Source of the DNA: Chthonomonas calidirosea | GTDB taxonomy: Bacteria > Armatimonadota > Fimbriimonadia > Fimbriimonadales > Fimbriimonadaceae | Direction of reading: 5' to 3' | DNA length: 64,000 nt | Assembly (NCBI GenBank): GCA_945882415.1 | Contig: CAMCWC010000006.1 | Span: 124,001 to 188,000 of the forward strand | The notes under the pieces: generated by a model | The model's input: the letters and a program-made list of their open reading frames with translations, nothing else | The model's database searches: none | Told to the model about the DNA's origin: nothing | Translations under genes and position numbers: made by a program | Part shown: in pieces, positions 51,000 to 58,432 of the stretch | Position numbering within the stretch: the first letter of the stretch is position 1 | Layout of the letters: each line of letters starts with the position of its first letter

Positions 51000-52619
51000 T
51001 CACTCGTTCGCCCAATCGTTGATCAGCCACCAATTCGCTTGATCGTGCGGGATGAACTTGGGGTGGGTTATGGTTTCGAACGACGGTAGGTAGCCAAGCG
51101 AGCCGTCGCCATAAGTCTTCACCCGTCGGATCACCTTTTCAACGTGCTCGCGGGCGGCGATGCAGCGCTCGACATCCGCAAGCGATCCACCGATTCGAGC
51201 GTTGGTTCCCTTCGCGATCCTCTCCAGACCTTCAAACACTTGTCGGCAAACGGTAAGGGCGGTGATGGCTTTGCCAACCTCACCCTCGGCATAAAACTGG
51301 TGCGCCTCCTCCGCGTACCGAACGAACTCGATTGCGAGCTTTCCGAACTCGGTTACGCCGCGATAAGCCGCATCTGGCGCGAATACGACCGCCGTGTCGA
51401 GGATCTGATACGCGCGCTTGCCAGCCTCGCCGAGAATGACCTCTCGGTCCCGAAGCCAGAGTAGAAACGGGTTGCTGTACATCAGCAAGCGGCTCTTGAG
51501 TTGGCTGCGATGGCCGCTATAGGCGAAGAACTCACCGGCAGATTGCAGTTCACACCCAACCAGGCGCGCCCATTCCTCGGTGTTCTCGCCGAGCTCCATG
51601 TACGCCTTCAGGAACTGCGGAGCGGAAGTGGCTTTCTGATATTCCAGAATTGCCTCGTGTCCGCCGAGCCCGGTCGGGTACTCGGCTGGTTTGGTCGGGG
51701 GATCTCCGGCGGTGGTTTCTGAGAGGATTCGACCTGAAGCCTTGATGGCCGGAAGAATCGTTTCGTAGTTGCCAAACAGTCCGCACTCCCAGGTTGTGAG
51801 GCAGACGCCATAGTCGCCTCGGCGGACGGCGGCTTCTGCGCATTCGGTCACGTTCCGCTCGCTTTGCGGAAGGTGGCACCAGACGGCGCTGTAGGTTTGG
51901 ATGGCTGGGCACAAGACGGTTTTGAAACCAGCGTCGCGGAACCGGTCGGCGGTGTGTTCTGCAGTCCGGAAGTACTGCCAGTCAAAGATCACCGTCTCTT
52001 TTGGCATCGCATCAAGTGCGAGTGGGTGGTCATAGTACATGTCTCCCCATACGGCCGGCGTTCGGCCCGCCCGAAGCACCTTTTCGGCCAGTGGACCGAA
52101 GTGGGCGCCGTACAGCGCCGCCTTGCCGTCGGCATGGCCATCGGATTCATATTGCCGAACACGCCCTTCGCTTGAGGCGCCTTTGCCGAGTTGGAACGTC
52201 TCGTCGCCGCCGAGATGAATCAGATCGGACTTGAAGATTGATATCGCATCATCGACGATTCGGTGGCAGAGTTCAACGAAGGCGTCGTTGGTCGGGTCGG
52301 CTTGCATCCCCTTGAATCGCTCGCAAGCAAATTTGAGTCCAGGTTCGGAGTAGATCATTCCTTCGCAGTGGCCGAGCAGGTTCAAGAACGGGACGATCTG
52401 TAGATCGGGATACCGCTCCTGCAACCAGGCAACATCGTCTGGCGTGACCGCGCCTTTGCCGGCGATCCAGGGCATGCTTGGGTACGCAAAGCGGTGCTCT
52501 AAATACAGCCCAAGCGCGTTGTAACCTGCAGACATCGACAGGTCCGCCATTCGGTCCAGAGTTTCTCGGTCGGGGCTCTGCTCGCGGGCGATGTCGTACA
52601 TCCACATTCGAAGTTGCAT
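51000..52619 (-). CDS. Glycoside hydrolase family 20 beta-N-acetylhexosaminidase
   Basis: A 539-residue cytoplasmic enzyme: MWMYDIAREQSPDRETLDRM, IVPFLNLLGHCEGMIY, and LIHLGGDETFQLGKG with the GH20 Asp139-Glu140 pair; DWQYFRTAEHTADRF and CLTTWECGLFGN follow in the barrel. The acetamido group of the substrate is the nucleophile in this family. There is no signal peptide or N-terminal non-catalytic domain. ATG at 52619 is used; TACACT lies 7 bases before it, so a leaderless mRNA is possible. It would free GlcNAc/GalNAc from short oligosaccharides. Confidence 0.82.
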   Translation of the reverse strand: MQLRMWMYDIAREQSPDRETLDRMADLSMSAGYNALGLYLEHRFAYPSMPWIAGKGAVTPDDVAWLQERYPDLQIVPFLNLLGHCEGMIYSEPGLKFACERFKGMQADPTNDAFVELCHRIVDDAISIFKSDLIHLGGDETFQLGKGASSEGRVRQYESDGHADGKAALYGAHFGPLAEKVLRAGRTPAVWGDMYYDHPLALDAMPKETVIFDWQYFRTAEHTADRFRDAGFKTVLCPAIQTYSAVWCHLPQSERNVTECAEAAVRRGDYGVCLTTWECGLFGNYETILPAIKASGRILSETTAGDPPTKPAEYPTGLGGHEAILEYQKATSAPQFLKAYMELGENTEEWARLVGCELQSAGEFFAYSGHRSQLKSRLLMYSNPFLLWLRDREVILGEAGKRAYQILDTAVVFAPDAAYRGVTEFGKLAIEFVRYAEEAHQFYAEGEVGKAITALTVCRQVFEGLERIAKGTNARIGGSLADVERCIAAREHVEKVIRRVKTYGDGSLGYLPSFETITHPKFIPHDQANWWLINDWANE

Positions 52620-52694
52620 GATCGCGAGTGTACAGCGATTGGCCATTCGGCAAACCAGCCAGATCGAGTTCACTTTTTTCGCAAGTGTGATACG

Positions 52695-53678
52695 ATGCGA
52701 CCAGTGGCCGCTTCCCCATTTGCAAAGAAGAACGAGTATCGATTGCTCCGAAATCACCAGAAGGTCCAGTTTCAGCAACTGTTGATCGAAGCGCGGACGT
52801 ATGCCGACCTTCAGAGTGGAACAGACCTGCAGTTCTTGGATGAACTTGGCAAGAAGCTTCCAACTGAGCTCACCCTTGAAGAGCTGTTCCAGATTGAGTT
52901 GTTCCTCAATCAGCACCGGCCAATCGAAGTTCTTCTGGGGCTCCGTTCTGGGTTAGAACAAGAGTTTGCCGCGGTCGGAGGCAAGAATTCGCCTTTGTCT
53001 GGCTTGCGGGAAGAGGCCGACGAGGAGCAGGTTCGGGCCAGATTTATTGCCCACCATCTGATCTTTAGCCGTCTGCGTGCGGCACATCACGTTTCGCAGG
53101 CAAGCCGCAGGAAGACGTTACGGATCGGCATTTGCGCGACGATCATTGTTGTCGCGATTGCGTGCGTGATTCTTACGCTGTTCTCTTCGGGAAGGGATAT
53201 CTATCTGCCGTCTTTCGGAATGTCCATGCTCATGGGTTTGCTGGGCGGGCTCGTCTCTACGATCGCTCCGTTGCTGGGCGGTCAGATTTCGGTGACGGCG
53301 GAGGACGATCAGGAGACGAACAGTGCCCTCCGGGCAACCGTCTTCTTCGGGCCTGTTTTGGGCTGCTGTTTCGCGGCGATTTTGTACTTGATCTTTGCCT
53401 CGAACATCGTGACGCTCGACCTGTTTCCGAAAATATTGACGCCGGATGCCAAGGATTTTGACAAGCTCTCGGCAAAGTTCATGCTCCCCATTGGGAAAGC
53501 GGCTCAGCTGAACAATCAGGAGCTCTCGATCGCCCGCATGCGGTTGTTTCTGGGCAAGGTCTATCCGGCTTCTGGGCAGGACTTCTGCAAACTCATGTTC
53601 TGGTCCTTTATCGCTGGCTATGCCAACCGACTCGTTCCAGACATGCTGACGAAGATTTCCCAGGGGCCGCGAAAGTGA
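52695..53678 (+). CDS. Membrane protein of unknown function
   Basis: A 327-residue protein. The N-terminal half is helical and charged (residues 1-135), then come membrane segments (IGICATIIVVAIACVILTLF, SMLMGLLGGLVSTIAPLLGG and VFFGPVLGCCFAAILYLIFA), and a last soluble part with a weak hydrophobic stretch at FMFWSF-like residues. I do not recognise a family. ATG at 52695 or GTG at 52704 are possible, as a TGATAC -10-like box lies only 5 bases upstream. It is convergent with hemW and divergent from GH20. Confidence 0.6.
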   Translation: MRPVAASPFAKKNEYRLLRNHQKVQFQQLLIEARTYADLQSGTDLQFLDELGKKLPTELTLEELFQIELFLNQHRPIEVLLGLRSGLEQEFAAVGGKNSPLSGLREEADEEQVRARFIAHHLIFSRLRAAHHVSQASRRKTLRIGICATIIVVAIACVILTLFSSGRDIYLPSFGMSMLMGLLGGLVSTIAPLLGGQISVTAEDDQETNSALRATVFFGPVLGCCFAAILYLIFASNIVTLDLFPKILTPDAKDFDKLSAKFMLPIGKAAQLNNQELSIARMRLFLGKVYPASGQDFCKLMFWSFIAGYANRLVPDMLTKISQGPRK

Positions 53679-54816: not shown

Positions 54817-55539
54817 TCACCGCGTCAAACCACCGATCGCTCGGGCCGTTTGCGACTCGGGCCGGTTGCAGGCTTCGATGGCGCTCGCGAGGGGACCGGC
54901 TAACGTGCCTTCCTGGTCGATTTCGCTGCTGCGCTCGTGCAACGACACCAGACTTGGGAGCAAGCTTTGGTTCGCGCAAATGTTTGCTATTAGCAAGAGG
55001 GTTTTCAAGCGTGAGGATAGCGTCTCGGTCGACAACAGATCTACAAGATGCGTAATCGTTTCCTCCGAGATTTCACGGCGATGATGCGGATGCAGATGCT
55101 TGGTGAGATAACTGAGAGAATTCCAGACCCCTGCCACTTTATCTTCATCGACAGGGTGCAAACCCGCGACGGATCTTGCTTTCCTTAATAGGTGAGGTAA
55201 GTCCGAAACCTTACGTGTTAACTCGCTCGCAGATGGTCTTAGATCGAGTTCTAAAAATGTATTAGTAGCATCAGAAATATGCACAAGGGCTAACAGAATC
55301 ATTCCATGCTTAGCCGCGTAACCAAAATCCTGAGTTGTAATCCAAGCGATGGTGGTGACAACGAAAAGCGCAGCGAACAGTACAAGATGAACTAGGGAAC
55401 TGATCCGAATCGCAATTGCTCTTCTCGCCTGCCGCTTTAATTCTTTAGCGTGATCAAAGTCGGTGATGATGCTTGGCTCAGGTGAAGCAATCTTGTCAGG
55501 CAGTTCTTTCACTCGACCGTCACCTCTAATAGACCGCAC
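54817..55539 (-). CDS. Member 1 of five tandem paralogous membrane proteins
   Basis: A 240-residue protein. Two membrane segments (SLVHLVLFAALFVVTTIAWI and GMILLALVHISDATNTF) are followed by the shared C-terminal domain: DLPHLLRKARSVAGLHPVDE, VWNSLSYLTKHLHPHHRR, LVDLLSTETLSSRLKTLLLI, and the ending ARAIGGLTR. The same ending (VRAIGGLAK) is found in member 3. The C-terminal domain is helical like ARM/HEAT repeats and lies in the cytoplasm if the N-terminus does. No catalytic residues are seen. It is the last copy before hemW. Confidence 0.7.
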   Translation of the reverse strand: MRSIRGDGRVKELPDKIASPEPSIITDFDHAKELKRQARRAIAIRISSLVHLVLFAALFVVTTIAWITTQDFGYAAKHGMILLALVHISDATNTFLELDLRPSASELTRKVSDLPHLLRKARSVAGLHPVDEDKVAGVWNSLSYLTKHLHPHHRREISEETITHLVDLLSTETLSSRLKTLLLIANICANQSLLPSLVSLHERSSEIDQEGTLAGPLASAIEACNRPESQTARAIGGLTR

Positions 55540-55574
55540 CTCCCGTTTTCCATGGTCTGGCCGTTAATGATCAT

Positions 55575-56237
55575 CTACCTGTCAGACCCTGCAATTCTTG
55601 AGTTCGGCATACCCTTGGTCTGGCCACATTCTGCAATCGCTAGCTTCACCTGGATTGCCAAGTTGCCGCCGGGATCGACGCTATCCACACGCGCCGCCAA
55701 GTCATCTAGCCCAGCGAGAAGTGCCCCATTGCCCGCGACTTTCGCGAGCCGTACGAGGACCTCGAGCCTATCGGGGCGAGTCTGCACGATGAGGAGCTCA
55801 TTCAAGTGAGATATCGAATCTTCCGAAAAGTGCTTTCGATGGCGAGGTCGGAGCTTCTTTGAGAGATAGTTTAACTCGAACCAAGCCGTGTAGGACTGGG
55901 CTCCTGAGTCGGGGGCCTGAGCCACAACTTCGATAAGTCGAGAAACTTCTTTTCCGTTCCATGGGAGACCACGGAAAGTTGATTTCGAATAGTGACCAGC
56001 CACATCTAATGCGGCAGAAAAGAGAAGTAAGAATTGACCGGTAATAGTTGCGGCCGGGTGACTAAGCAGGTTGGTTCCGAAGAGAAAGGGTACCAAAATG
56101 AAGAGCGAGGAAGATGCCACGGCAATGACGTAAATTCGCACTGCTAGTGGGAGCCACTTGAGTCGATCTTGCGTCTCTTCTAGTTCCAAACCGCCAATGG
56201 GATCAGCTTTAACGGTATTCGCGTCGGCATCGCTCAC
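55575..56237 (-). CDS. Member 2 of five tandem paralogous membrane proteins
   Basis: A 220-residue protein with two membrane helices (IYVIAVASSSLFILVPFLFG, ITGQFLLLFSAALDVAG) and the C-terminal domain with AWFELNYLSKKLRPRHRKHF, LNELLIVQTRPDRLEVLVRL and LLAGLDDLAARVDSVD. It lacks the ELPRLL segment strength of the others (VSRLIEVVAQAPDS) and the RAIGGL ending is decayed (RIAGSDR), so it is the most diverged. No family is recognised. Confidence 0.65.
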   Translation of the reverse strand: MSDADANTVKADPIGGLELEETQDRLKWLPLAVRIYVIAVASSSLFILVPFLFGTNLLSHPAATITGQFLLLFSAALDVAGHYSKSTFRGLPWNGKEVSRLIEVVAQAPDSGAQSYTAWFELNYLSKKLRPRHRKHFSEDSISHLNELLIVQTRPDRLEVLVRLAKVAGNGALLAGLDDLAARVDSVDPGGNLAIQVKLAIAECGQTKGMPNSRIAGSDR

Positions 56238-56299
56238 TGTTTGACCGCCTCCGTAACGGGGATTTTGGAGTCATATACATACGTATAACAAGTGACCAT

Positions 56300-57037
56300 T
56301 TACTTTGCCAAGCCTCCAATGGCCCGGACCGATTTTGGTTCGACTTTGCTACACGCCTCGATCGCCAAGGCGATTTGCTCGGCAAGTTTGTGAGTCGAAT
56401 CGAGATCGTCTGCGACTAGTTTCACCGTTTTGAGCTCGGGCAGGAGCTTCGAATCTGCGGCGATGGTCGCAAGTCGTACGAGCACCACTAGTCGTTCCAG
56501 AAGTGTTTCCGTGCCCAGTAAGTGCTTCAGATTCTCCACGGCGCCATCGTCGAAATGCGGCTTGTGGTGAGGATGCAGCTTTTTGGACAGGTAGCTCAGG
56601 CAATTCCAGACATTTACGTACTCACTCTCGTCACTCGGGGCAAGCACCGCGACTTGTTTCGCTTTCCCCAGCAAGCGGGGTAGCTCGGATGGCTTTGAAG
56701 TCCACTCCTCTGTCCCAAAATCGAACACACCTTTGCGTCGGTTTCGCTCGATAATGACCATCACTCCAGCGAACAACAAGAACTTGCCGAGGTAATCAAA
56801 AGGTTTGTGTGGACCTGGCAAGTAGCGTTGCATGAGTTCCGAGATCCCGGCCCAGATGCAGTACGCGCTAATGATGATGACAATATTTGGCGTCCAGAAC
56901 GCCCTCCAGTCTTCAGAGGGTTTTGGCTTCTTCGGTGTCACCGCAGCTGAAGGGACGTCGGCCTCGTGCAAAGCGACCGAGATGCCCGATGATGCCCGCG
57001 TCGGCTCTGGTCCTAGATCAAGATTCTGCTGAGCCAT
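56300..57037 (-). CDS. Member 3 of five tandem paralogous membrane proteins
   Basis: A 245-residue protein (ATG 57037; a GTG at 57073 would overlap the preceding gene). Membrane segments are NIVIIISAYCIWAGISEL and LGKFLLFAGVMVIIE. The C-terminal domain is the best representative: ELPRLLGKAKQVAVLAPSDE, VWNCLSYLSKKLHPHHKPHF, LKHLLGTETLLERLVVLVRL, LLPELKTVKLVADDLD and the RAIGGLAK ending. The N-terminal 35 residues are Pro-rich and disordered. Confidence 0.7.
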   Translation of the reverse strand: MAQQNLDLGPEPTRASSGISVALHEADVPSAAVTPKKPKPSEDWRAFWTPNIVIIISAYCIWAGISELMQRYLPGPHKPFDYLGKFLLFAGVMVIIERNRRKGVFDFGTEEWTSKPSELPRLLGKAKQVAVLAPSDESEYVNVWNCLSYLSKKLHPHHKPHFDDGAVENLKHLLGTETLLERLVVLVRLATIAADSKLLPELKTVKLVADDLDSTHKLAEQIALAIEACSKVEPKSVRAIGGLAK

Positions 57038-57042
57038 GGGGT

Positions 57043-57675
57043 TTAAGGGGCGGCGGTCAGGGCTCTCTGACACGTTGTGGAGGCAAAAGCAATTTGATCC
57101 GCAAGGGATTGAGTCGGGTCGATATCGGCTGCCCGTGCGTGGAGGGAATTTAGGCTTGGTAGTAGAACCGGATTTGCGGCGACTTGGGAGAGGCGAACCA
57201 GAACCGCGAGCCGCCTCGGGTCGGGTTCCACGGTCAACATCTCCGCAAGATCAGTGATGATCTCGGGCGTGAAGAAATTCTGATGATGGGAGTAGAGCTT
57301 GGTTGAAAGCACCGATAACTCCGACCAGACTTCAGTCGACTCGCTCGGCTCTGACTCGCCGCGTTTGGCCTGCTGAAGCAGTTGAGCGAGCTCGGATGCG
57401 TTGCGGCCGACCTCGCTCGGAGTGAATTTCTTATCGAAATCGATCAACCAGACGGTCACGGCCAGGAGCGTTGTCTGGAGGATCGATGCGGCGGGGTTTA
57501 CGACCAATTCGAGGCGGTTTGTGATCGAGCAGATGACGAACAGGCACAGCACAAGAATGACGAGAACAAGGCAGGTGATGATCGTGGTGCGGAGCCAGGT
57601 TGGCCGGGTGGGAAGGTGAGTTGGCGCCAAGGTTCCTCCGCTGGAAGTCGCGCTTGGGTTGGCGTTAGATTTCAA
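57043..57675 (-). CDS. Member 4 of five tandem paralogous membrane proteins
   Basis: A 210-residue protein with two membrane segments (TIITCLVLVILVLCLFVICS and ASILQTTLLAVTVWLI), and the shared domain ELAQLLQQAKRGESEPSEST, VWSELSVLSTKLYSHHQNFF, LAEMLTVEPDPRRLAVLVRL and LLPSLNSLHARAADID. The His-His of PHH in this region is conserved as SHH. The N-terminus is Pro/Thr-rich. It ends just upstream of member 3, on the same strand. Confidence 0.7.
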   Translation of the reverse strand: MKSNANPSATSSGGTLAPTHLPTRPTWLRTTIITCLVLVILVLCLFVICSITNRLELVVNPAASILQTTLLAVTVWLIDFDKKFTPSEVGRNASELAQLLQQAKRGESEPSESTEVWSELSVLSTKLYSHHQNFFTPEIITDLAEMLTVEPDPRRLAVLVRLSQVAANPVLLPSLNSLHARAADIDPTQSLADQIAFASTTCQRALTAAP

Positions 57676-57751
57676 CTTGGGTCACCGATGCATCGAAGCT
57701 AGGGATAGTTTATCGCAGACAACCAGCATCTACCAACACTTTTCGCCGCAA

Positions 57752-58432
57752 TTAGGCGGACTTTGCGCAGGCAGAGATGGCTTCGCGGAGCACTACTCGG
57801 AGGTTGTCGAGAACTTCAAGATCCTTGGTTCGATCCTTAAGGTCGCGAAGGAGCGGCAGCAACTCGGGGTCGGCCGCGATGGCGCAGATGCGGACGATGG
57901 TTTCGAGGCGGTCTCGGCGCGTTTCGGAGGCGAGGAAGCCTTTGAGATCGCCGATCGTATCTTCGGTGATGACGGTTTTGTGCTCGGGATCAAGCTTTTT
58001 GGAAAGGTAGCTGAGGGCTCTCCAAACGCCAATATTGGCTTCTTCGAATTCGGCCGAAAGGTGCATGACCTCTACCGCTTTCTTCAGCAAGCGCGGAAGC
58101 TCAGACGCCTTTGAGGTGAATGGCTCTGGTGTCAAATCCTCCTCGGTAGCGGAAGGCTGCTTCAAGAAGAAAAACGGTGCGGTGAAAACTAGACTAAGAC
58201 CGGCGGTTTCCAGCATGCGTTCCACATTGAACGGCTTTCCGGCTCCAAAATCTCCTACAGCAGTACACACCGCCATAAGGAGTGTCGTGCCGAAGTACGC
58301 GATCCATGCCATCTTGGAGGTATCGGAATCAACCGTCTGCTCGTCGTCCGACTCAAGAGCGTCTTCTTCAAGCCAAGCGCCGTCAACCGCGAGCGGCGCA
58401 ACCACGATTTGTTCCTCCGAATCCTGAGTCAA
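57752..58432 (-). CDS. Member 5 of five tandem paralogous membrane proteins
   Basis: A 226-residue protein, first in transcription order. It has an acidic N-terminus (EEDALESDDEQTVDSD), membrane segments (IAYFGTTLLMAVCTAVGDF and LSLVFTAPFFFL) and the shared domain ELPRLLKKAVEVMHLSAEFE, VWRALSYLSKKLDPEHKTVI, LKGFLASETRRDRLETIVRI and LLPLLRDLKDRTKDLE. The HH pair is EH here. It lies 64 bases downstream of the PfkB gene. Confidence 0.7.
   Translation of the reverse strand: MTQDSEEQIVVAPLAVDGAWLEEDALESDDEQTVDSDTSKMAWIAYFGTTLLMAVCTAVGDFGAGKPFNVERMLETAGLSLVFTAPFFFLKQPSATEEDLTPEPFTSKASELPRLLKKAVEVMHLSAEFEEANIGVWRALSYLSKKLDPEHKTVITEDTIGDLKGFLASETRRDRLETIVRICAIAADPELLPLLRDLKDRTKDLEVLDNLRVVLREAISACAKSA

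Follow-up and report, generated by a model that had tools for sequence, protein, structure and literature searches.

Five tandem genes encoding putative membrane-hairpin proteins with a predicted HEAT/ARM-type repeat domain

The window, the whole stretch of 64,000 nucleotides that was analyzed, contains five tandem genes on the minus strand (54817-58432) whose products are paralogs of 210-245 amino acids. The locus raises the question of what kind of proteins these are, to which family they belong and what the array as a whole might do. Such an array had been described in an original prediction made from the window's letters, and all five open reading frames were confirmed in place.

Layout of the array and predicted fold of its products

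The start codons of P1 to P5 were corrected against the orthologs of a sister species. The genes and the repeat domain of P3 were placed as follows.

P1: 54817-55512, minus strand; GTG start, 231 aa; N-tail, membrane hairpin, predicted HEAT/ARM domain and IGGL tail (open reading frame and AlphaFold)
P2: 55575-56237, minus strand; 220 aa; most of its length diverged from the sister ortholog (open reading frame)
P3: 56300-57037, minus strand; ATG start, 245 aa; N-tail, membrane hairpin, predicted HEAT/ARM domain and IGGL tail (AlphaFold)
P3 repeat domain: 56348-56692, minus strand; predicted HEAT/ARM-type helical-repeat domain (AlphaFold, Foldseek and VIA-align; hhalign to the 2TM-HEAT family)
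P4: 57043-57675, minus strand; 210 aa; without IGGL tail, hairpin kept between species (open reading frame)
P5: 57752-58432, minus strand; 226 aa; hairpin segment apparently replaced between species (open reading frame)

The paralogs followed a common plan, in which a variable N-tail precedes a membrane hairpin and a conserved helical C-domain. The conserved motif blocks described earlier for the C-domains were real. The five domains shared 17 invariant columns and aligned far beyond chance, with shuffle z scores of about 20-60 for nearly all pairs of full-length paralogs; the lowest pairing was that of the truncated sister P5 with P4 (z = 9-11). When the N-tails and transmembrane (TM) segments of different paralogs were compared, no clear similarity was seen (z below 5). 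The ending RAIGGL, predicted for members 1 and 3, was found in window P1 and P3, and RTIGGL and RAIGGL were present in the sister orthologs. The IGGL-type tails of P1 and P3, kept in the sister, could be candidate linear motifs. Promoter and terminator scans were uninformative. Whole-genome searches recovered exactly the five genes of the array as close copies; a single-copy gene elsewhere in the genome was a remote relative.

For P3 and P1, AlphaFold models based on alignments of nine rows showed a disordered N-tail, two long helices forming a hairpin, and then a domain of stacked helices. The two membrane helices of the original prediction corresponded to two hydrophobic helices in these models, while a simple 19-residue hydropathy cut-off missed the second helix in window P1, P3 and P5. 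In the P3 model the hairpin comprised residues 38-70 and 76-102 and the repeat domain residues 114-228. The pLDDT was near 90 across most of the P3 repeat domain and more variable in P1. The best PDB matches of the P3 domain in Foldseek included designed armadillo and other repeat proteins, with probabilities up to 0.99 and E values of at least 0.045. The VIA-align Z scores were 11.1 with APC and about 10 with beta-catenin, values within the range that unrelated helical repeats can reach. As scores of this size are common for helical repeats, the fold assignment rests on their agreement with the sequence evidence given below. The prediction for the C-domain, which this agreement supports, is a short HEAT/ARM superhelix of about three repeats. 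In those proteins whose hairpin was found by the hydropathy scan, basic residues ahead of TM1 were at least as numerous as acidic ones, which is in line with an N-in topology.

Related proteins and named families

No direct significant match of the five proteins was found in Pfam or NCBIfam, PHROGs gave nothing significant, and the best hit of a PDB sequence search had an E value of only 0.28. PADLOC gave no match at E 0.1; its library dates from 2023, and absence there does not exclude defence. No relatives of the array were found in plasmid and phage records or in viral contigs. Literature searches on the family, the LLRP motif and the phylum, genome papers included, yielded no description of a 2TM-HEAT family. 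HEAT repeats that have diverged often escape searches made with a single sequence, as noted in PMC2744927.

When 291 genomes of the phylum were searched with a profile of the ten array C-domains, only two further matches appeared, both weak and both in genome G137. These led to a family with a TM hairpin, a HEAT domain and three C-terminal LLR[PA] motifs, which is multicopy and often tandem (26 matches in G137 and 12 in G143). In hhalign this LLR-tail family matched the array with P = 6e-8 and a score of 58, against 19 for the reversed profile; column-shuffled controls, for which the C-domain alignment was used, reached at most 16, against a real score of 49. A profile of 17 2TM-HEAT proteins with LLRP tails from the Armatimonadota lineage, which included no array sequence, detected all ten array proteins with E values from 1.2e-8 to 2.7e-3, the best of 299 background open reading frames having an E value of 0.86. 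Sister P2 was the array protein that the LLR-tail profile matched best, and a whole-genome search with the profile recovered it at 1.9e-6. The listed matches of the LLR tail searched alone in three genomes fell where the HEAT profile also matched.

By inspection, the three LLR[PA] motifs are absent from all array proteins, which were therefore filed as relatives and not as members of the LLR-tail proteins. Both groups have a TM hairpin N-terminal to a homologous HEAT/ARM domain and both are multicopy and often tandem, but P1 and P3 carry IGGL-type tails in place of the triple LLR[PA] tail. Two families of the phylum (f12 and f22; loci L031-L056 of G137, L057-L086 and L087-L091) carried the LLR-tail proteins in multiple copies, and within the window's own order members were found in few genomes.

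Relatives lacking the tail, of 220-257 aa with a hairpin and a HEAT domain, were matched, some weakly, in 16 of 85 genomes of the same bacterial family, including the window's own. They resemble the array in this plan and in the absence of the LLR tail (e.g. L128); unlike the array, they occur as one copy in most carrier genomes, and their direct similarity to it is weak. The hhalign P value between the two was 1e-5, and the tail-less profile matched sister P2 at E 3.4e-6 and window P2 at 7e-3, the remaining array proteins lying at background level. Several members of both the LLR-tail and the tail-less families matched Pfam HEAT_2 or HEAT_PBS. No recurring partner gene was found beside the relatives looked at. 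A single-copy tail-less gene sits immediately upstream of an ftsY-like gene in L128 (1486-2151, G000:C3, the window's own genome) and L129 (1498-2154, G014), and a relative in G011 closely follows YidC-like and Jag-like genes; these neighbors were named from reading.

On the basis of the profile links and the HEAT_2 and HEAT_PBS matches of the relatives, the array would be a divergent tail-less branch of the 2TM-HEAT family, and homology to this Armatimonadota-lineage family is supported by the sequence comparisons. The earlier statement that the domain belongs to no named family thus held for direct searches; it did not hold for the domain itself, which is of a divergent HEAT/ARM type and has ties to a large 2TM-HEAT family within the same phylum. 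An apparently orphan array is thereby joined to a family that occurs in multiple copies in part of one phylum. Like HEAT and armadillo proteins (HEAT_2 and HEAT_PBS members; APC, beta-catenin and designed ARM proteins), the array proteins have a predicted helical-repeat superhelix, but they differ in lacking a direct family match, in having only about three repeats and in the membrane hairpin fused to them.

Conservation and mosaic divergence between two species

The array was present in only two of 20 genomes of the genus, that of the window and that of a sister species (G014, JAIXQR010000001.1, a pond MAG), which was also the only match in a scan of genome contigs for the array. Copies beside the same neighbors in related genomes had been proposed as a check, and the sister had all five there: the same genes in the same order between the same flanking neighbors. 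Each pair of window and sister orthologs formed a supported clade. The five copies therefore predate the split of the species, and the array is old, as had been supposed. Repeated replacement of whole copies among the paralogs was unsupported, since window and sister orthologs grouped pair by pair. In the sister, P5 carries a frameshift within its repeat domain (L017 8688-9443, G014), which reflects either a real pseudogene or an assembly error.

The retention of five copies in unchanged order in both species would agree with a hetero-oligomeric membrane scaffold, in which five fixed subunits diverged into distinct positions and the IGGL tails lie in the repeat grooves of neighboring subunits. 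The tails of P1 and P3 are conserved, and armadillo domains often bind extended peptides. We consider this scaffold rather doubtful, given the P5 frameshift in the sister and the wholesale replacement of the hairpin in two or three subunits, described below, which is unusual for fixed subunits.

Divergence was compared between two genomes, the window and the sister. DNA identity within the array was mostly 70-93%, and two blocks stood out in the identity profile.

Block A: 58160-58430, minus strand; N-tail and hairpin of P5; 45-62% DNA identity to the sister
Block B: 55215-56279, minus strand; P3/P2 spacer, P2, P2/P1 spacer, and N-tail and hairpin of P1; 33-61% DNA identity

The start of the P2 ARM domain, with 73% DNA identity, was an exception inside block B. 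Identity was intermediate at the edges of both blocks, which lay close to the boundary of hairpin and repeat domain in P5 and P1. In blastn against the sister, 58133-58409 was unmatched, and only 55824-55976 matched within block B. The first hairpin helix of P3 had 63% DNA identity. At the protein level, the identity of P1 to its sister ortholog was 84% in the ARM domain and 48% in the N-tail and TM segment (N+TM). The N+TM of P5 was only 34% identical, while the first half of its ARM domain reached 90%. In P2 the values were 31% for N+TM and 48% for ARM; P4 showed the opposite pattern (80% and 72%).

By NG86, estimates of which are rough where segments align poorly, dS was saturated in the N+TM of P5 and P2, 3.2 in that of P1 and 2.4 in the P2 repeat domain, while elsewhere in the array it was 0.2-0.9. 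Fast amino acid change as the sole cause of the hairpin divergence was rejected, since spacers and silent sites in the blocks were equally diverged. This divergence argues for the replacement of DNA segments and not merely relaxed constraint on the proteins. Mosaicism, in which hairpin-coding segments were replaced between the species while most repeat domains remained alike, is supported by the comparison of these sequences. Variation is located in two sharp blocks in which DNA, mostly that coding for hairpins, was replaced next to repeat domains that are conserved.

The original prediction had read the array as selection for combinations; the pattern found was instead the replacement, segment by segment, of DNA that codes for hairpins, joined to a repeat domain that was mostly conserved. 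Such replacement fits the diversification of one module, and hetero-oligomers, sensing or immunity are not identified by it. Replaced blocks with saturated silent sites, a broken P5 in the sister and an array confined to two of the 20 genomes would be expected of a conflict or immunity locus, where toxins, phages or competitors that act on the membrane would each be sensed or warded off by a different hairpin, and hairpins would be exchanged under diversifying selection. We regard such a locus as unlikely, as the immediate neighbors are of housekeeping type (HemW, PfkB and a GFO/IDH oxidoreductase by Pfam/NCBIfam), PADLOC and PHROG matches were absent, and the phage, plasmid and viral-contig collections held no relative.

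The dS of the neighboring genes was also variable (0.38-2.11), and the P3 hairpin had a raised dN/dS (0.44) at ordinary dS. Both observations, like the multicopy state of the family elsewhere (26 matches in G137), would suit a weakly constrained family under little or no shared selection, with hairpins for which hydrophobicity suffices and a mosaic that reflects hidden paralogy or else homologous recombination of an ordinary kind with strains that had diverged. Purifying selection acts on the repeat domains, with dN/dS about 0.1 in P1 and P3, and the block edges in P5 and P1 lie near the hairpin/repeat boundary, which makes this reading improbable in our view.

The reading that we prefer, to which we would give nearly an even chance, is that the array encodes five membrane-tethered HEAT/ARM adaptors with the hairpin as a swappable specificity module and the repeat domain as a shared docking module. 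The N-terminal hairpin would anchor each protein with a short extracytoplasmic loop, and both the repeat domain and the disordered N-tail would be cytosolic. The five similar repeat domains would dock a common partner or each other, and the paralog-specific hairpin and N-tail would choose the membrane partner of each copy. An adaptor function is suggested by the mutually unrelated hairpins joined to similar ARM domains and by the mosaic identity profile. Against it, the repeat domain of P4 changed more than its hairpin, that of P2 was also largely replaced, sister P5 is frameshifted, a direct Pfam/NCBIfam match is absent, and the VIA Z scores are attainable without relation. That hairpin modules are recombined onto constant HEAT/ARM adaptors and so diversify membrane recognition, for self/non-self or competitor recognition, seems quite improbable. 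If recurrent replacement were seen in more strains, the specificity module would be directly testable by domain swaps.

Surroundings of the array

A pfkB-like gene flanks the array on one side and a hemW-like gene on the other. The hemW-pfkB junction gave no empty site: a hemW locus was present in 17 other members of the genus, pfkB was found beside it in none of them, and the gene upstream varied. A plus-strand gene for a membrane protein without a clear family separates hemW from a large conserved gene (window 52614-53678, 51000-52916). The large conserved gene was near hemW in 9 of the 17 other genus loci examined.
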